Source: Streptomyces glaucescens (lineage in GTDB: Bacteria; Actinomycetota; Actinomycetes; Streptomycetales; Streptomycetaceae). From it: a stretch of 54,325 nucleotides of DNA. Shown here piece after piece: positions 8,224 to 43,454 of the stretch (positions are counted from its first letter, which is position 1; every line of letters begins with the position of its first letter). Below the pieces are notes generated by a model that was given only the letters and a program-made list of their open reading frames with translations, was not told the DNA's origin and did not search any database. Both the position numbers and the translations under genes were made by a program. The DNA lies in assembly GCF_002154375.1 (NCBI RefSeq), contig NZ_MUND01000058.1, forward strand, positions 1 to 54,325, given 5' to 3'.

Positions 8224-8443
8224 TCGTCTGTGCGTCGTACGTTCGCATCTCATCGCTTGCGAAGAGATCCAGAATCAGTCACGCATGAGGGGTGTCTCGG
8301 CAGTATGGCGTAGTGAGTGAAGCAAATCCGTTCCCAGACGGGTCAGTTGTAGTGCTGAATGGGATGTGCGGGGATACGCAACGGCGCACGCTCGGCACAA
8401 CGGGAGGGGCGTGTGCCGACCGGCGGCTGAGAGGGGTTTGTTC

Positions 8444-9520
8444 GTGCCTTTCCCACACAGCACCACCGCGACCGCGGTCGCCGTTCCACCGTCGCTCGCA
8501 CTACCGGTGATCGAGGCGGCGTTTCCAAGGCAATCGCATCCGTATTGGCCCAGGCTCCAGGAGAAGACCCGTAGCTGGTTGCTGGAAAAGCGGCTCATGT
8601 CGGCGGAGCAGGTGGAGGAACATGCCGACGGCCTCTGCTACACCGACCTCATGGCGGGGTACTACCTCGGCGCCCCGGACGAGGTCATGCAGGCCATCGG
8701 GGACTACAGCGCGTGGTTCTTCGTCTGGGACGACCGCCACGACCGGGACATCGTCCACCGCCGCCCCCTGGCCTGGGACCGGCTGCGCACCAGACTGCAC
8801 ACGGCACTGGACCGGCCCCAGGAGCACCTGCGGCACGAGGACCCTGTCGTGGCGGGCCTCGCCGACAGCGTGCTGCGGCTCTACCGGTTCCTGCCGGACA
8901 CCTGGAACGCGCGGTTCGCCCGGCACTTCCACACGGTGATCGAGGCGTACGACCGGGAATTCCGTAATCGCATCGAAGGGTATGTGCCCGCCGTCCAGGA
9001 ATACCTGGACCTACGCCGTCTCACCTTCGCCCACTGGATATGGACCGATCTGCTGGAACCGAGTGCGGGAATCGAACTCCCGGAATCCGTGAGGAAACAC
9101 CCGGCATATCGCCGGGCGGCGCTGCTGAGCCAGGAATTCGCCGCCTGGTACAACGACCTCTGTTCCCTGCCCAAGGAGATCGCGGGCGACGAGGTCCATA
9201 ATCTCGGCATCAGTCTCATCGCCCATGAGGGGCTCACACTCGAAGAAGCGGTCGCCGAAGTCCGGCGCCGGGTCGAGACGTGCATCACCGATTTCCTCGT
9301 CGCCGAACGGGACGCGCTGCGGTTCGCCGACGGCCTGGCCGACGGCACGGTGCGGGGAAAGGAACTGAGCCTCGCCGTGCGGGCCTGCCTCGCGAATATG
9401 CGGAACTGGTTCAGCTCCGTCTACTGGTTCCACCACGAGTCCGGCCGGTACCGGGTCGACAGCTGGGACGACCGGTCCACGCCCCCGTACGTCAACAACG
9501 AAGCGGCAGGTGAGAAATGA
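8444..9520 (+). CDS. cyc1: epi-isozizaene synthase (class I sesquiterpene cyclase)
   Basis: A 358-residue terpene synthase that cyclises farnesyl diphosphate to epi-isozizaene, precursor of albaflavenone. The Asp-rich motif DDRHD (residues 96-100, in [11 protein letters not shown]) and the NSE triad NDLCSLPKE (N237, S241, E245) are intact, as is the C-terminal RY pair region. From memory, the sequence closely follows S. coelicolor SCO5222, including its C-terminus [15 protein letters not shown] 8444 is chosen because GAGAGGGG lies 7 bases upstream. The stop overlaps the P450 start (ATGA), so the two are translationally coupled. Parts of the gene (about 8940-9100) use noticeably more A/T-ending codons than neighbours. 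Confidence 0.95.
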
Positions 9521-10896
9521 CCGTCGAGTCCGTGAAGCCCGCAGCCCCCGGAGGGGCCCAGGCGCCGGCGCTGCGCGAACCGCCCCTCGCCGGAGGCGCC
9601 GTACCGCTCCTCGGCCACGGTCTGAAGCTGGTCCGGGATCCGCTGGCGTTCATGTCCCGGCTCCGGGAGCACGGCGACGTCGTACGGCTGAGGCTCGGCC
9701 CCAAGACGGTGTACGCGGTCACCACCCCCGCGCTGACCGGAGCCCTCGCGCTGAGCCCCGACTTCAAGATCGACGGTCCGCTCTGGGAGTCCCTGGAAGG
9801 CCTGCTCGGCAAGGAGGGCGTGGCCACCGCCAACGGCCCTCGCCACCGTCGCCAGCGGCGCACCATCCAGCCCGCCTTCCGGCTGGACGCCATCCCCGCG
9901 TACGGGCCGATCATGGAGGAGGAGGCGCATGCGCTCACCACCCGCTGGCGGCCCGGCGAGATCGTCGACTGCACCTCGGAGTCGTTCCGGGTGGCCGTGC
10001 GGATCGCGGCCCGCTGCCTGCTGCGCGGCGAGTACATGGACGAGCGCGCCGAGCGGCTGTGCAACGCGCTCGCGGTCGTCTTCCAGGGCATGTACCGGCG
10101 GATGGTGGTCCCGCTCGGCCCGCTGTACCGGCTGCCGCTGCCGGCCAACCGTGAATTCAACCGGGCGTTGGCCGATTTGCATCTCCTCGTGGACGAGATC
10201 ATCGCCGAGCGCCGGGCGTCCGGTCAAAAGCCGGACGATTTGCTGACGGCATTGCTGGAGGCAAAGGACGAGAATGGTGAGCCCATCGGGGAGCAGGAGA
10301 TCCACGACCAAGTGGTCGCGATACTCACCCCCGGAAGCGAAACCGTGGCTTCCACGATCATGTGGCTGCTCCAGGTGCTCGCGGAACATCCGGAACACGC
10401 GGACAAGATCCGAGAAGAGGTTGAGTCCGTAACGGGTGGCCGCCCGGTGGCATTCGAGGACGTCCGCAAGCTCCGGCACACCAACAATGTCGTCGTCGAG
10501 GCGATGCGTTTGCGCCCGGCCGTCTGGATATTGACCCGGCGGGCGGTCACCGACACCTCGCTCGGTGACTATCGCATTCCCGCCGGGGCCGACATCGTGT
10601 ACAGCCCGTACGCGATCCAGCGCGATCCGCACTCATACCCGGAGCACCTCGACTTCGACCCGGACCGCTGGCTTCCGGAACGCGCCAAGGAGGTGCCGAA
10701 ATATGCCATGAGCCCCTTCAGTGTGGGTAATCGGAAGTGCCCGAGCGACCACTTCTCGATGGCTCAACTGACGCTCATCACGGCTGCGGTGGCGACGAAG
10801 TACCGCTTCGAGCAGGTGCCCGGATCCGACGACGCCACCCGCGTGGGCATCACGCTCCGTCCGCAGCGGCTGCTGCTGAGGCCCGTGCTCCGGTGA
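9517..10896 (+). CDS. cyp170A1: cytochrome P450 CYP170A-type, epi-isozizaene monooxygenase (albaflavenone synthase)
   Basis: A 459-residue P450. The heme loop is [13 protein letters not shown] with ligand C408. The K-helix ExxR is E328-R331 (EAMRLRP). The I-helix segment [10 protein letters not shown] carries the oxygen-activation Thr. CYP170A1 oxidises epi-isozizaene twice at the allylic C5 position, giving albaflavenols and then the antibiotic sesquiterpene ketone albaflavenone. The S. coelicolor enzyme also has a reported moonlighting farnesene synthase activity. The matching acidic stretch here reads [19 protein letters not shown], so that side activity cannot be assumed. No dedicated ferredoxin gene is adjacent. 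Confidence 0.94.
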
Positions 10897-37254: not shown

Positions 37255-37399
37255 TGAGCGCCGACCCGTGCGCCGATCGGGGCGCAGGGGGATCATTGGC
37301 CCCGCGACGCGGGAACTGCGCAGCCGCGGCGATCGTGGAACACCTGGGAAGCGCGGACACGCGGGGCACGAGCGGGACTTGGCGACTCGGAGGGGCGCG

Positions 37400-37951
37400 G
37401 TGAGCGGCACCACACAGCGGTACTTCATCAGTTACGCGGGCGTGGACCGCTCCTGGGCCGAGTGGGTGGGGTACCACCTGGAGCAGGCCGGCCACCGGGT
37501 CACGCTCGACGTGTGGGACTGGCGCACCGGCGACGACTTCGTGCAGCGGATGGACGAGGGGCTGGTGCAGGCCGACGCGGTCGTGGCGCTGTTCTCCAAG
37601 TCCTACTTCGAGCCCGGCCGGTGGACCGGCGAGGAATGGTCCGCCGTGATCGCACGCCGCGACCGCATCATCCCGCTCGCCATCGAACCGCTCACCAACC
37701 GCGACATCCCCCCGATGCTCGCCACCCGGGTCCGCATGGACCTCCACGGGCTGGACGAGAAGGACGCCGTCGCGGCCCTGCTGGCGGCGGTCGGCGGAGG
37801 CGTACGGCCGAGCAGCCCGCCACCGTTCCCGGGCGGGCCCGCCGCGCCGCGCCAGTCGAGCAGCCCGCCGCCGTACCCGGGGACCGCCGCGGCTGCGACA
37901 GCGGCGGCCGCGCCGGCGAAGCCGGACCAGCCGAAGACCGGGACGGCCTGA
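37400..37951 (+). CDS. stand-alone TIR-domain protein with Pro/Ala-rich tail
   Basis: 183 residues from GTG 37400. A TIR domain spans about residues 6-130: RYFISYAGVDRSWAEWVGYH, DVWDWRTGDDFV, VVALFSKSYFEPGRW and TGEEW with E78/E79 at the NADase-type Glu position. The tail (about 133-183) is Pro/Gly/Ala-rich with two PPxPG repeats and no fold. The domain resembles, from memory, the N-terminus of large streptomycete TIR-NB-ARC-TPR proteins, so it may be a free-standing or truncated relative. The 26-bp tandem duplication at its stop codon shows recent 3'-end change. It could be an NAD-cleaving effector or an adaptor. Confidence 0.85.
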   Translation: MSGTTQRYFISYAGVDRSWAEWVGYHLEQAGHRVTLDVWDWRTGDDFVQRMDEGLVQADAVVALFSKSYFEPGRWTGEEWSAVIARRDRIIPLAIEPLTNRDIPPMLATRVRMDLHGLDEKDAVAALLAAVGGGVRPSSPPPFPGGPAAPRQSSSPPPYPGTAAAATAAAAPAKPDQPKTGTA

Positions 37952-37979: not shown

Positions 37980-38882
37980 TCACGGCTGAGGCGCGCCGGT
38001 GATCACGGCGGCCACCACCGTCCCCGGCGCGAACGCGCCCTCGTCCGCCAGCGCGACAAGGCCGTACAGCATCTTGGCGACATAGAGACGCTCCACGCCT
38101 GTCCCGTGCCGTCTCTCGAAGTCGTCGGCGAACCGGTGGAGTCCGGGCGTGGTCCGGGCGTACCCCCCGAAGTGGAACCGCTCGTCGAGCCGCCAGTCGC
38201 CCTGCGGCCCGCCGAACGTCCGCTCCTGCAACGTCCGTATCTCGTCGCCGAGGAAGCCCCCTTTGAGCACGGGGATCCCCAGCGCCCGCTGTCCCGGTGC
38301 CAGGCCCGCCGCCAGTCCGGCCAGCGTGCCCCCGGTGCCGCAGGCGACCGCCACCACGTCGGCCCGCCCGCGCAGTTCCTCGCCGAGGGCCCGGCAGCCG
38401 CGGACCGCGAGGGCGTTGCTGCCGCCCTCGGGAACGACACAGGCCTCCTCGGCGCCGGCCGCGCGCAGCACACGCGCGAGAGTGGCCGGATTCGTCTTGT
38501 GGCGATACGTCGATCTGTCGACGAAGTGCAGCCGCATGCCGTCGGCCGCGCACCGGGCGAGGGAGGGGTTGAGGGGGCGGTCGGCCAGTTCGTCGCCCCG
38601 GACGACGCCGATCGTGGGGATGCCGAGCAGGCGGCCCGCGGCAGCGGTGGCGCGCAGGTGGTTGGAGTACGCGCCGCCGAAGGTGACGATCGGCCGGCCG
38701 TCCGCCGCCGCCAGATTGGGCGCGAGCTTGCGCCACTTGTTGCCGATCAGGTCGGGGTGGATGAGGTCGTCCCGCTTGAGCAGCAGCCGCACACCGAGCC
38801 GGGCGAACCGGTCGTCCCGCACCTCCTGCACGGGGGAGGGCAGCCGCGGGTGCAGGGCGGCGAGGGTGTCGTGGCTGGTCAC
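37980..38882 (-). CDS. PLP-dependent D-cysteine desulfhydrase / ACC deaminase-like enzyme
   Basis: A 300-residue fold-type II PLP enzyme. KRDDLIHPDLIGNKWRKL (about 36-53) carries the PLP Lys, GGAYSNHLRATA (about 69-80) the substrate/cofactor loop, and CGTGGTLAGL the phosphate loop. This pattern fits DcyD and ACC deaminase relatives, which cannot be told apart without structure-based comparison. GTG 38882 is preceded by GACAAT and 6 bases, a possible leaderless start. It is convergent with the TIR gene. Confidence 0.85.
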   Translation of the reverse strand: MTSHDTLAALHPRLPSPVQEVRDDRFARLGVRLLLKRDDLIHPDLIGNKWRKLAPNLAAADGRPIVTFGGAYSNHLRATAAAGRLLGIPTIGVVRGDELADRPLNPSLARCAADGMRLHFVDRSTYRHKTNPATLARVLRAAGAEEACVVPEGGSNALAVRGCRALGEELRGRADVVAVACGTGGTLAGLAAGLAPGQRALGIPVLKGGFLGDEIRTLQERTFGGPQGDWRLDERFHFGGYARTTPGLHRFADDFERRHGTGVERLYVAKMLYGLVALADEGAFAPGTVVAAVITGAPQP

Positions 38883-38924: not shown

Positions 38925-39515
38925 TCACTTCAGCCGGGCGCGGATCCGCTCGCGCATCGACTCCATGGTGAAACCGCGCGGATCGACCTTCCCGGGCTGC
39001 CACTCCTTGTGCCCGATGACCGACCGCTCCGTCCACCCGTGGTGGCGGCAGATCGCGGCGGCGGCCCGCTCGACGGCCTCCAGCTGGGCGTTGGGCCAGG
39101 GGTCCTCGCCGTCGCCGAGGTTCTCGCACTCGAAGCCGTAGAAGTGGCGGTTCCCGTCCGTGTTCGCCTCGTTCTCGCGCGGCAGCGCCTTCTCCGCGAT
39201 CACCGCGCGCAGGACCTCGTCGTCGCCCATCCCGGCGTGGTTGGCCCGGCCGTGGCCGACGAGATGGACGGTGCCGTCCTTGGTGATGACGCCGTGGCAC
39301 AGCGGCCCCGGCAGGTCCGCGTGGCCCTGCCGGCACAGCTCCACGGTGTGTTCGCTGCCCCGGGTGACCGTGTGGTGCAGCATCACACCGTGGACGGGCC
39401 CCCACGGGCCCTTGTGATCGCGGTTGTGATGCCGCCAGTCGCCGACTTCGACGACCGTGACGCCTTCCGTCCGCAGGACGTCGAGGAACCGGTCCGCGGA
39501 CATGGGTGAGGCCAT
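38925..39515 (-). CDS. N-acetylmuramoyl-L-alanine amidase domain protein (Amidase_2)
   Basis: 196 residues from ATG 39515, with GAAAGGGG upstream. The Amidase_2/PGRP fold shows VMLHHTV (zinc His), the ANHAG(M)GDDE segment, ECENLGDG, and GHKEWQPGKVDP (zinc His plus Lys and Asp). Such enzymes cut the amide between MurNAc and the stem peptide. No signal peptide is visible, so it is either exported by another route, released by lysis, or acts on recycled muropeptides. Size and form resemble phage endolysin catalytic domains, but no phage genes surround it. Confidence 0.85.
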   Translation of the reverse strand: MASPMSADRFLDVLRTEGVTVVEVGDWRHHNRDHKGPWGPVHGVMLHHTVTRGSEHTVELCRQGHADLPGPLCHGVITKDGTVHLVGHGRANHAGMGDDEVLRAVIAEKALPRENEANTDGNRHFYGFECENLGDGEDPWPNAQLEAVERAAAAICRHHGWTERSVIGHKEWQPGKVDPRGFTMESMRERIRARLK

Positions 39516-39698
39516 GCGCGCCCCTTTCGCTGGTGCGGGGCGGCCGCGCGCCGCGACCTCCCGTACCGCTGCTTCTACCGAAGCGCGATGACGCGGAACC
39601 ATCCATTCGCACAGCGTGCGAGCCGATCCGGACAGTCGGCTTCCGGCTACGCCCCGAAACGAACCCGTCGAAGGTCCCTATGTGTGCCCCGGCGCGCG

Positions 39699-39728
39699 TT
39701 GATCCATTCCCGCTCTTTCGGGTAATAG
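39699..39728 (+). promoter_or_regulatory. candidate promoter for the encapsulin operon
   Basis: TTGATC (39699-39704), an 18-base spacer and TAATAG (39723-39728) form a reasonable housekeeping promoter with a start near 39735 and a leader of about 85 bases. The rest of the 304-base interval 39516-39819 shows no gene and no clear operator. Confidence 0.5.
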
Positions 39729-39819
39729 CACGAGCACGTTGGGTGATGGAAGGGTTGGTCGCGAGATCGGTGCCCGGCGCAGATCGCTGCCAGGCATGAC
39801 CGGGAGGGGTAAATCTTCT

Positions 39820-41226
39820 ATGTCGGTAGGCGAAGAGGTCCGCACGGAGCAGGGCAGGCCTCAGCAGAGCCTCGGGACCGCTGCCGCGCGAAACCTGGCC
39901 ACCACCACCAAGTCCGTCCCACAGATGCAGGAGATCAGCTCCCGCTGGCTGCTGCGCAATCTGCCCTGGGTGGACGTACAAGGCGGTACGTACCGGGTGA
40001 ACCGACGGCTGACCTTCGCAGTGGGCGACGGGCGCATCACCTTCGTGAAGACCGGTGACCGTGTCGAGGTCATCCCCGCGGAGCTCGGCGAACTGCCCGC
40101 GCTGCGGTCGTACCAGGACGAGGAGGTGCTGACCGAGCTGGCCCGGCGCTGCGAGCAGCGGGAGTTCTCCGCGGGCGAGGTGATCGCCTCCTTCGGCAGC
40201 CAGACCGACGCGGTCTATCTCCTCGCGCACGGCCGGGTGGAGAAGGTCGGTACCGGCCCTTACGGCGAGGACGAGAGCCTGGGCGTCCAGGCCGACGGCT
40301 CCTACCTGGGCGATCAGGCGCTGCTCGGCGGGGACGGCATCTGGGAGTACACGGCCCGCGCGATCACTCCGTGCACCGTCCTCGTGCTGTCCCGGCAGCA
40401 CTTCGAGCAGGTCGCCGAGCGCTCCGAATCCCTCCGCGGCCACCTGGAGCAGCTGCGCTCGCTGCCCCGGCAGCGCACCAACAAGTACGGCGAGAAGGAG
40501 ATCGACCTGGAGGCCGGTCACACCGGTGAGCCGGACATCCCGCACACCTTCGTCGACTACGAGGCCCGGCCCCGCGAGTACGAACTGAGCATCGCCCAGA
40601 CCGTGCTGCGCATCCACTCGCGCGTGGCGGACCTCTACAACCAGCCGATGAACCAGACCGAGCAGCAGCTCCGGCTCACCGTGGAGGCGCTGAAGGAGCG
40701 CCAGGAGCATGAGCTCGTCAACAACCGGGAGTTCGGCCTGCTCCACAACTGCGAGTACGACCAGCGGATCCAGCCGCACGACGGAGTGCCCAGCCCCGAC
40801 GACATGGACGAGCTGCTCAGCCGACGGCGCGGCACCAAGATGTTCCTCGCGCACCCGCGCGCCATCGCCGCGTTCGGGCGCGAACTGAACAAGCGGGGCC
40901 TGGTGCCGGAGACGATCGACATCGGCGGCAACCGCATCCCCACCTGGCGGGGTGTGCCGATCTACCCGTGCAACAAGATCCCGGTCACCGAGGCGCGCAC
41001 CACCTCGATCATCGCGATGCGTCTCGGCGAGGCCGACCAGGGAGTCATCGGACTGCGGCAGTCCGGCATCCCGGACGAGATCGAGCCGAGCCTGTCGGTA
41101 CGGTTCATGGGCATCAACGAGCAGGCGATCATCAAGTACCTGGTGACGGCGTACTACTCGGCGGCCGTCCTCGTCCCGGACGCCCTCGGTGTCCTGGAGA
41201 ACGTCGAGATCGGCCGCTGGCAGTGA
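39820..41226 (+). CDS. Family 2B encapsulin shell protein with cyclic-nucleotide-binding-like domain
   Basis: 468 residues from ATG 39820 ([20 protein letters not shown] 11 bases upstream). N-arm and first HK97 segments (about 20-100; [20 protein letters not shown]) are interrupted by a cNMP-binding-like beta barrel (about 103-205; [33 protein letters not shown]). The HK97 fold then resumes (about 235-468; [20 protein letters not shown], then [19 protein letters not shown]). This order defines Family 2B encapsulins, which self-assemble into protein nanocompartments. The phosphate-cassette Glu of true cAMP binders is replaced (LGD), so ligand binding is uncertain. The next gene encodes its probable cargo. 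Confidence 0.93.
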
Positions 41227-41338
41227 CCTTCCTGGCCGTGCGTCCGTGTCCCCGCGCCGTCGGGCGGGTAGATCTCCCGGGTACGCGCCTGTCCGGAGCG
41301 GACACGCCACCGTCCGCGCGGCCCGCGAGGGGGATCCT

Positions 41339-42679
41339 GTGACCGAGTCCATGACGCAGGCCGAGCCGCGCCGCGCCGGGACGCGCGGCGGCGTCACCGG
41401 TCCGCGCCCTGCGGCTTCGCACCGGGACATCGACACGCGCGAAAGGCGGATTTCCATCGCGACGGACCCGGACCCGGACCCGGTCGCCGAGTCGGACCCG
41501 GTCGCCGAGTCGGGCACGGACACCGAGTCGGACCCGGTCACCGAGTCGGGCACGGTCACCGAGTCGGACCCGGACACCGATACGGGCACGGACACCGATA
41601 CGGGCGATACCGGTTCGGGCACGGACACCGGCACGGACAGCCGGCCGGGCCGGTCCACCGGCGACGAGGCTGCGGTGATCCTGGAGAGCGCCCGGGCGTC
41701 GGTCGATCCCCAGCTGCGCGCGGCCGTGGACTCCTTGCCGGGTGCGATGCGCCGGATCGCGCGCTACCACTTCGGCTGGGAGCACGCTGACGGCACCCCG
41801 GCAACGGGCAACGCGGGCAAGGCGATCCGGCCCGCCCTCGTCCTCACCGCGGCGGCCGCGCTCGGTGGCCCCGCTGCCCACGCGGCGGCCGTGCGGGCTG
41901 CCGTGGCGGTGGAGCTGGTGCACAACTTCACGCTGCTGCACGACGACGTGATGGATCGGGACACCACCCGCCGGCACCGTCCCACCGCGTGGACGGTGTT
42001 CGGCGACGCCGACGCGATTCTCGCCGGTGACGCACTCCAGGCCCTCGCCCTGCGGCTGCTCGCCGAGGACCCGCACCCGGCGTCGGCGCCCGCGGCGGCC
42101 CGGCTCGCGGCCTGTGTGGTCGAACTCTGCGAGGGCCAGCACGTGGACACCGCGCTGGAGCGGCGTGCCCCCGCCGAGGTCGCCCTGGACGAGGTGCTGG
42201 GCATGGCCGAGGCCAAGACCGGGGCGCTGCTGGGCTGCGCGTGCGCGCTGGGCGGACTGTACGCGGGGGCGGCCGCCGAGGACGTCGAGGCGCTGGACGC
42301 GTTCGGCCGGGAGGCCGGGCTCGCTTTCCAGCTGATCGACGACGTCATCGGCATCTGGGGCGACCCCAGCCGCACAGGGAAGCCGGCCGGGGCGGATCTC
42401 GCGGCCCGCAAGAAGTCCCTGCCGGTGGTCGCCGCGCTGGCCTCCGGCACCCCTGCGGCGGCGGAACTCGCCGAGCTGTACCGAGCGCCGTATGACGGCG
42501 AGGACCTGGAGCCGATCGTCCTCGCCGTGGAACGGGGGGGCGGCCGGGACTGGGCCCAGGTCCAGGCGGCCGACCACATGGCCCGGGCGATGCAGGAACT
42601 GGCCCGCGCCATCCCGGATCCGGAGGCGGCGGGCGGACTCCTCGCCCTCGCCGAGTTCGTCACCCGCAGAACCGCCTAG
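41339..42679 (+). CDS. polyprenyl diphosphate synthase with disordered N-terminal tail, probable encapsulin cargo
   Basis: 446 residues from GTG 41339 (GAGGGGG six bases upstream), 112 bases after the shell gene. Residues 1-105 are predicted disordered: a basic stretch (HRDIDTRERRISIA, about 29-39), then DPVAES/TDTES-type acidic repeats. The all-alpha isoprenyl synthase follows, with first Asp-rich motif DDVMD (202-206, LLHDDVMDRDTTRR) and second DDVIG (334-338). It condenses isopentenyl diphosphate with allylic diphosphates; chain length cannot be fixed by eye. Family 2B encapsulins are known to pair with terpene cyclases or polyprenyl synthases carrying such tails, which direct loading. Confidence 0.92.
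   Translation: MTESMTQAEPRRAGTRGGVTGPRPAASHRDIDTRERRISIATDPDPDPVAESDPVAESGTDTESDPVTESGTVTESDPDTDTGTDTDTGDTGSGTDTGTDSRPGRSTGDEAAVILESARASVDPQLRAAVDSLPGAMRRIARYHFGWEHADGTPATGNAGKAIRPALVLTAAAALGGPAAHAAAVRAAVAVELVHNFTLLHDDVMDRDTTRRHRPTAWTVFGDADAILAGDALQALALRLLAEDPHPASAPAAARLAACVVELCEGQHVDTALERRAPAEVALDEVLGMAEAKTGALLGCACALGGLYAGAAAEDVEALDAFGREAGLAFQLIDDVIGIWGDPSRTGKPAGADLAARKKSLPVVAALASGTPAAAELAELYRAPYDGEDLEPIVLAVERGGGRDWAQVQAADHMARAMQELARAIPDPEAAGGLLALAEFVTRRTA
41460..41640 (+). repeat. in-frame minisatellite encoding the acidic tail of the prenyl synthase
   Basis: About ten degenerate 18-base units related to CGGACCCGGTCACCGAGT and CGGGCACGGACACCGAGT encode DPV(A/T)ES and GTDTES/GTDTD hexads at residues about 41-101. 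The period is a multiple of three, so copy-number change alters tail length without frameshift. Confidence 0.9.
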
Positions 42680-42851: not shown

Positions 42852-43454
42852 ATGGGCGTGGCCATCCGGACGGCGGGGGAGAGCGACCGGGAGCTGGTCG
42901 TCCGGCTGCTGGACGAGTCGTTCCGGGAAGACCCGGTCAGCCGCTGGGTCTTCCCCGGCGACGCGTACCTCGCCCGCACCCATCACAAGCTCATGGCCGC
43001 CTTCACCGACATCGTGCTCGCCGAGGGGTGGGTGGACGTCACCGAGGACGGCTCGGCCTGCGCGCTCTGGCTGTCGGTGCCCGCGGCCGACCCGGCCGGC
43101 GCCGGGCACGACGAGGGCCCCGCCCAGGTCCGGGCGGCCGTCGACCCGGCGAACGAGCGCGTGGAACTGATCGGCCGGCTCACCGGGGAGATCCACCCCG
43201 CCGGCCGCGCCCATGAGTACCTGTGGATGATCGGCGTGACGCCGGACCGCCGGGGCGAGGGCCTCGGCACCGCGCTCATGATGCCGGTCCTCGACGGCTG
43301 CGACCGCGAGGGACGGCCGGCCTACCTGGAGGCGAGCAACGCCGACAGCCGCCGGCTGTACGAGCGGCTCGGCTTCACCGTGATGACCGACCGGGTGCTG
43401 ACCCTGCCCGACGGCCCCACGATGTGGCCGATGTGGCGCGAGCCGCGCGGCTGA
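42852..43454 (+). CDS. GNAT-family N-acetyltransferase
   Basis: 200 residues from ATG 42852 (AAAGGGGCGGG upstream). The acetyl-CoA site is IGVTPDRRGEGLGTALM (about 126-142), with EASNADSRRLYERLGF near 158-173. The overall form resembles GNATs with a long central insertion (PAADPAGAGHDEGP). TACGCT at about 42804 may be its -10. The substrate is unknown. It ends 7 bases before the stop of a convergent TetR gene. Confidence 0.87.
   Translation: MGVAIRTAGESDRELVVRLLDESFREDPVSRWVFPGDAYLARTHHKLMAAFTDIVLAEGWVDVTEDGSACALWLSVPAADPAGAGHDEGPAQVRAAVDPANERVELIGRLTGEIHPAGRAHEYLWMIGVTPDRRGEGLGTALMMPVLDGCDREGRPAYLEASNADSRRLYERLGFTVMTDRVLTLPDGPTMWPMWREPRG

Follow-up and report, generated by a model that had tools for sequence, protein, structure and literature searches.

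The 54,325-nucleotide stretch of Streptomyces glaucescens DNA analysed here (contig NZ_MUND01000058.1 of assembly GCF_002154375.1, positions 1-54,325, forward strand; below, the window) carries at 39820-42679 two adjoining genes that together make up a family 2B encapsulin operon with one shell gene and a prenyl synthase, probably the eshB locus of Streptomyces; the synthase is probably inside the shell. This reading is preferred because both proteins score above the cut-offs of curated encapsulin models and the shell protein matches solved shells over nearly its full length, and also because shell and synthase genes are linked in 136 of 137 loci and the aspartates of the catalytic motifs are invariant in 38 aligned sequences. 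This kind of operon has already been described and is common in the genus: among 121 Streptomyces genomes sampled (118 above the quality line), the cargo model exceeded its cut-off in 90 and the family 2B shell in 118. The modest new leads are a conserved upstream element, a conserved pocket apparently not made for a nucleotide, and natural operons with almost no tail on the synthase, which bear on how, and whether, the enzyme enters the shell.

Shell protein

The shell gene (39820-41226, forward strand) encodes 468 amino acids. The NCBIfam model encap_f2b matched residues 17-466 with 769 bits (cut-off 400), and the Pfam SrpI-like model matched residues 216-466 with 458 bits, preceded on the N-terminal side by a cNMP_binding match (PF00027, residues 114-201, 61 bits). 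The protein aligned with the solved chains 9bhu (residues 6-467), 9bix (9-465) and 9bje (14-465), and the alignment to 9bhu spans both the cyclic-nucleotide-binding-like (CBD-like) and the HK97 parts. According to PMC12407261, 9BHU is the family 2B encapsulin of S. griseus, and 9BIX and 9BJE are two shell proteins of S. lydicus. On these profile and structure-chain matches the gene is annotated as a family 2B encapsulin shell and probable eshB orthologue, which bears out the sequence-only reading, made before any database search, of an HK97 shell interrupted by a cyclic-nucleotide-binding-like domain.

For comparison, 137 synthase loci (80 named and 57 unnamed) were fetched as best matches, with a bias toward high scores and with a few duplicates among them. 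The shell lies directly upstream of the synthase in 136 of them, and the exception (L053) begins at a contig end; the 137 operons referred to below are these 136 loci together with the window. One full shell was found in 78 of the 80 named loci, the remaining two being cut by contig ends, and the genome of the window holds a single family 2B shell above the cut-off, so that the two shell genes of a two-component operon were not found here. The window shell carries the RRR motif of the Enc2 type, and xRRR occupies that site in all 80 full-length shells that could be aligned (the window, 78 named loci and one from the sister clade; 57 of 137 rows were left out as too short). It was reported that S. 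lydicus Enc2 (9BIX, RRR) alone forms shells of ca. 28 nm and that Enc1 (TVWK) does not (PMC12407261). By analogy with the solved relatives and from the Enc2-like RRR motif, the window shell protein would most likely form a small T=1 particle on its own.

The mean frequency of the major residue over the 80 shells was 0.91-0.94 in the N-arm and the two HK97 parts (0.91 in the N-arm, residues 1-35, 39820-39924), 0.88 in the linker and 0.84 in the CBD-like domain, the least conserved region. The targeting motif of terpene cyclases, GPTGLGTSAAR, found its best match in the shell's own N-arm (6 of 11 residues identical; 18 of 1000 shuffled shells did equally well), a faint hint that cyclase cargo might mimic the N-arm. 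A full-length match to Rfam RF02735 Sernc350, an antisense RNA of Saccharopolyspora, was seen on the minus strand at 39850-40358 (101 bits, gathering threshold 50), which likely stems from protein-coding similarity because it lies wholly within the shell gene.

CBD-like domain and its pocket

The CBD-like domain is inserted in the HK97 fold at about residues 93-212, its ends being set by eye (40096-40455, PF00027). Its pocket, W175-E176-Y-T178-A-R180 (40342-40359), is non-canonical; the genome's own Crp has R-T-A-T-A-T there. W175, T178 and R180 were present in 80/80 shells and E176 in 79/80, all four were kept in the eight sister-clade shells inspected, and W is shared by all three solved relatives, E and R by two each. 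In an alignment to the Crp of this genome, Trp175 sits at the position of the arginine that we take to bind phosphate in the Crp cassette, and this arginine is missing from every one of the 80 shells. The pocket is thus conserved within the orthologue group, and since an invariant tryptophan replaces the phosphate-binding arginine, its residues indicate that it is not made to bind a cyclic nucleotide. The domain could possibly respond to a different ligand, and the conservation of a pocket unsuited to nucleotides helps to restrict the candidates.

Two other views of the first gene have to be weighed at this point. That it encodes an ordinary regulator of the Crp type whose tail resembles HK97 by accident has practically no chance of being right: it does contain the cNMP_binding domain, and two solved family 2B shells carry the deposition name Crp/Fnr regulator, but the CRP model gave a mere 18 bits against 769 for the encapsulin model, no DNA-binding domain was found in the shell protein by Pfam at E values up to 1, and these scores together with the solved-shell match refute it. 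Control of the shell by cyclic nucleotides, one form of the ligand-responsive gating raised in the sequence-only reading, has the fold on its side as well as the place that the domain occupies above the two-fold pore of solved relatives (PMC12407261); in such a shell, cAMP or cGMP would open or close the pores and thereby set the isoprenoid flux. The invariant Trp175 speaks against this, as does an earlier study, cited in PMC12407261, according to which the family 2B domain binds no cyclic nucleotide, and we regard cyclic-nucleotide gating as very unlikely.

Prenyl synthase and terpene cyclases of the genome

The second gene (41339-42679, forward strand) begins with GTG and encodes 446 amino acids. 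The intergenic gap of 112 bases (41227-41338) runs from the shell stop codon ending at 41226 to this start, in agreement with the arrangement of two genes 112 bases apart described before the database work; among the 78 operons (out of 137) with an M-x-E/D-type start, 48 have a gap of 111-113 bases. The protein scored 195 bits with Pfam polyprenyl_synt and 487 bits (cut-off 450) with NCBIfam f2_encap_cargo4, the "family 2 encapsulin cargo polyprenyl transferase", and with a family 2 shell gene adjoining it at 112 bases it is assigned to cargo type 4. An AlphaFold2 model built on 38 sequences showed a confident, nearly all-helical core from residue 107. The first aspartate motif, DDVMD (41942-41956), is preceded by Phe at -5 in 137/137 rows, the window included, and the second, DDVIGIWGD (42338-42364), is invariant in the residue-conservation alignment, which comprises 38 sequences from the window's clade; the aspartates of both motifs and K161, R164, R211, R212, K293 and K348 are invariant in the same alignment. 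Judged from these residues, the enzyme is apparently an intact trans-prenyl diphosphate synthase. As a rule, Phe at -5 of the first motif points to C15-C20 products, most likely C20, and on this ground the product would be of C15-C20 length, most likely geranylgeranyl diphosphate (GGPP). Six further PF00348 loci are present in the genome, one of them cut by a contig end. A paralogous prenyl synthase (L005, G000:C285) reached 399 bits with the cargo model, below the cut-off of 450, and has a similar HNFSLLHDD motif.

No terpene cyclase lies within the operon, as had been noted earlier; an epi-isozizaene synthase gene at 8366-9520, in the same window and 30 kb from the operon, had gone unmentioned. 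Next after it comes a bifunctional albaflavenone monooxygenase/terpene synthase of the cytochrome P450 type, which completes an albaflavenone pair (8366-10896). Over the whole genome, five PF19086 domains were found in four genes, three of which exceeded the NCBIfam cut-offs for epi-isozizaene, 7-epi-alpha-eudesmol and alpha-amorphene synthases. The fourth (L011 1276-3453, G000:C793) is a two-domain cyclase, presumably geosmin-synthase-like, that reached 1127 bits with the model of cargo type 3, below its cut-off of 1200; it and the sole shell gene are on different contigs. No cyclase of cargo type 2 (2-methylisoborneol type) exceeded the cut-off in this genome. We take all four PF19086 cyclases to be of sesquiterpene types, and GGPP would therefore not feed them (PF19086 was the only family searched).

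The N-terminal tail and the loading question

The sequence-only reading had also described a disordered tail of about 105 residues before the catalytic core, and the AlphaFold2 model agrees with it: residues 1-104 (41339-41650) had a predicted local distance difference test (pLDDT) below 50, and the net charge of residues 1-110 is -16. Approximately half of this tail is a local tandem-repeat expansion, detected by Tandem Repeats Finder as an 18/36/54-bp repeat over residues 46-100 (41475-41639). The disordered N-terminal extension of 50-100 residues given as a trait of prenyl-synthase cargo in PMC8346489 is present in the window, and it is not general. When the upper bound of tail length was set by the in-frame start that gives the longest product downstream of the shell stop codon, it ranged from 0 to 282 residues across the 137 operons; it was at most 40 in 26 of them.

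The very short tails are phylogenetically confined. A tree of the 137 synthase cores (133 different), made by a quick method and midpoint-rooted, splits them into clades of 28 and 109 (Shimodaira-Hasegawa-like approximate likelihood ratio test, 100), and the operons bounded at 20 residues or fewer all fall in the clade of 28, the sister clade; the shortest bound in the clade of 109 is 24. One of the short-tail operons (L125) has no start before the core at all, where a sequence error is possible. Because the bound is 22-70 residues in the other 17 operons of this clade, the sister clade as a whole should not be read as tail-less. At six of the eight sister-clade loci inspected, GTGACCGTGACCATGACCAG occurs within 130 bases after the shell stop codon and the core follows about 15-20 codons on. 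The tail does not appear to have been relocated to the C-terminal end, because core and C-terminus together have median lengths of 335 and 334 residues in the two clades.

Two short patterns recur in tails. M[AGST][ED][FL]xT[EKGQ] was found at a possible start in 47/137 operons (2 of 13,700 codon shuffles), and ER[RL]xxI, which is present in the window, in 23/137 (33 of 27,400 shuffles); neither occurs in the operons with 20 residues or fewer. Starts resembling MTET are common in Streptomyces proteins. Both patterns are more frequent than chance would give, and either may act in loading within the lineage that carries it. The terpene-cyclase targeting motif LGT[SA]A, from GPTGLGTSAAR, was found in 0/137 prenyl-synthase tails, the window included.

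Several points weigh against the synthase as enclosed cargo of an eshB-type shell. The bound is 20 residues or fewer in 11 of the 137 operons, the window being counted among the 137; a universal loading motif in the tail had to be rejected, as no motif is common to all tails; and LGTSA, resembling the published targeting motif, stands in the linker between the domains of the two-domain cyclase, which to judge from this motif could possibly be a second shell cargo acting in trans. Furthermore, the AlphaFold2 model of the shell (40 similar sequences) had a mean pLDDT of 52 with the HK97 part unresolved and was not used, and the eshB orthology of the pair rests on locus tags and neighbouring numbers, not on sequence. 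It is conceivable, though we consider it unlikely, that the synthase is a co-regulated partner outside or docked on the shell, that the true cargo is encoded elsewhere and that the tail is neutral and partly repeat-driven. The variable tails without a common motif would fit this, and so would the repeat in the window, the clade-restricted short tails beside shells that were intact at the same site in 8/8 sister-clade loci checked, and the two-domain cyclase with LGTSA in its linker and its cargo type 3 score. Against it stand the near-absolute linkage of shell and synthase and the 111 of 137 operons with room for over 40 residues ahead of the core, and a signal borne by the core or by a very short N-terminus is possible as well. 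A related proposal, to which we give about one chance in five, is that the long tail, which part of one clade has lost or never acquired, is no targeting signal; the enzyme would be captured through its folded core or through a minimal N-terminal stretch, or would act outside the shell. Separately, it makes the CBD-like domain, by its invariant Trp175, Thr178 and Arg180 and near-invariant Glu176, a conserved sensor of some ligand that is no cyclic nucleotide, perhaps an isoprenoid or another diphosphate, and that would set pore opening.

The enclosed synthase remains the probable reading. Since 11 of 137 operons have 20 residues or fewer before the core, a tail-borne signal is not general, and tail-driven loading is doubtful, on the compared operons, as a rule for this cargo class. 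The idea that the tail of about 105 residues serves as loading signal, implied by the earlier reading, is weakened by the repeat expansion and by its near absence in part of a sister clade with intact shells. Deletion of residues 1-105 alone would be a poor loading test, and the nearly tail-less natural operons offer a ready-made one.

Under the enclosed-synthase reading, the synthase, probably housed in the shell, would condense isopentenyl diphosphate with allylic diphosphates to a C15-C20 product. This product would exit by way of the two-fold pores, which lie beneath the CBD-like domains in solved relatives, and would supply isoprenoid-using processes in other parts of the cell while the organism develops. 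Should the CBD-like domain act as a gate for these pores, its ligand would be something other than a cyclic nucleotide.

Upstream element and gene neighbourhood

A promoter- or operator-like block at 39685-39760 (forward strand), with the core TGATCCATTCCCGCTCTTTCGKGTAAT, emerged from an alignment of 78 upstream regions including that of the window, where it is conserved far above its surroundings, the ribosome-binding site excepted. The 26-base core pattern was matched at 39701-39726, and GATCCATTCCCGCTC was exact in 62/78 regions, 93-139 bases 5' of the start codon. With at most two mismatches, the core occurred once per genome in 19 of 41 genomes of the genus (reversed control, 0); among the matches listed, the core stands just before a shell gene in 18 cases, and in the 19th (G013) it precedes the synthase by about 1.6 kb. 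At class level, six of the 118 genomes searched had the core, all of the same genus. An initial view that the sister clade lacks the element was withdrawn, as a diverged copy is present there, e.g. CTCTTTTGTGTAATGG. SCO5249 is listed among possible direct negative targets of AtrA (PMC13170358); the element is not assigned to AtrA here. The scan found no sigma-70-like promoters, and one minus-strand terminator-like site within the shell gene, which is about the shuffled expectation.

The flanking genes recur. A gene for a pyridoxal phosphate (PLP)-dependent enzyme (37980-38882, minus strand) was found in 72/80 named and 8/8 sister-clade loci, the divergent Amidase_2 gene (38925-39602, minus strand) in 62/80 and only 3/8, and a GNAT acetyltransferase gene (42852-43454, forward strand; Pfam), possibly a third gene of the operon, in 51/80 and 7/8. 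The recurrence of these neighbours points to one conserved chromosomal site and vertical inheritance. A TIR-domain gene at 37268-37951 was seen in 2/80 named loci, some of which are short, and is perhaps a local insertion.

Comparison with known systems

The 2021 survey in PMC8346489 counted 900 prenyl-synthase and 904 terpene-cyclase operons, with 888 of the 900 being actinobacterial, and PMC8049743 gives the prenyl synthase as the commonest neighbour of family 2b shells. The earlier remark that terpene cyclase systems are the main source of knowledge on family 2B is thus not supported by operon numbers. It does agree with PMC12407261, where terpene cyclases are the only characterised terpenoid cargo named. 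Among the matches listed from the open-licence literature, preprints not included, there was no structural or biochemical work on a prenyl-synthase encapsulin. The prenyl-synthase operons of PMC8346489 share with the window the CBD-like insert, the adjoining prenyl synthase, the actinobacterial host and the disordered N-terminus, there described as 50-100 residues without a conserved motif; nothing essential differs from what that source describes, apart from a tail near the top of this range and half built of repeats.

The window is probably the equivalent of the eshB (SCO5249)-SCO5250 locus of S. coelicolor, where a cyclic-nucleotide-binding-like protein and a gene grouped with those of the methylerythritol phosphate/deoxyxylulose phosphate (MEP/DOXP) pathway (PMC7494193) are neighbours by locus number. 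SCO5249 is eshB, its paralogue eshA is SCO7699, and eshB is up-regulated in development (PMC3878966). The paralogous eshA has been tied to 2-methylisoborneol genes and regulators (PMC8549240, PMC6428758, PMC5839063), and with the synthase genes of SCO7699-7701 it likewise combines a family 2B shell with a terpenoid operon; its cargo, however, is a terpene cyclase, whereas the window operon has a prenyl synthase, and LGT[SA]A occurs in 10 of 30 cargo type 2 cyclases, in contrast to the prenyl-synthase tails searched with the same pattern. The S. lydicus proteins Sl-Enc1 and Sl-Enc2 belong to the same shell family and the window shell is of the Enc2 type, but they are described as a two-component shell of a xylulose-kinase system (PMC12407261), whereas the operon and genome studied here have one shell gene.

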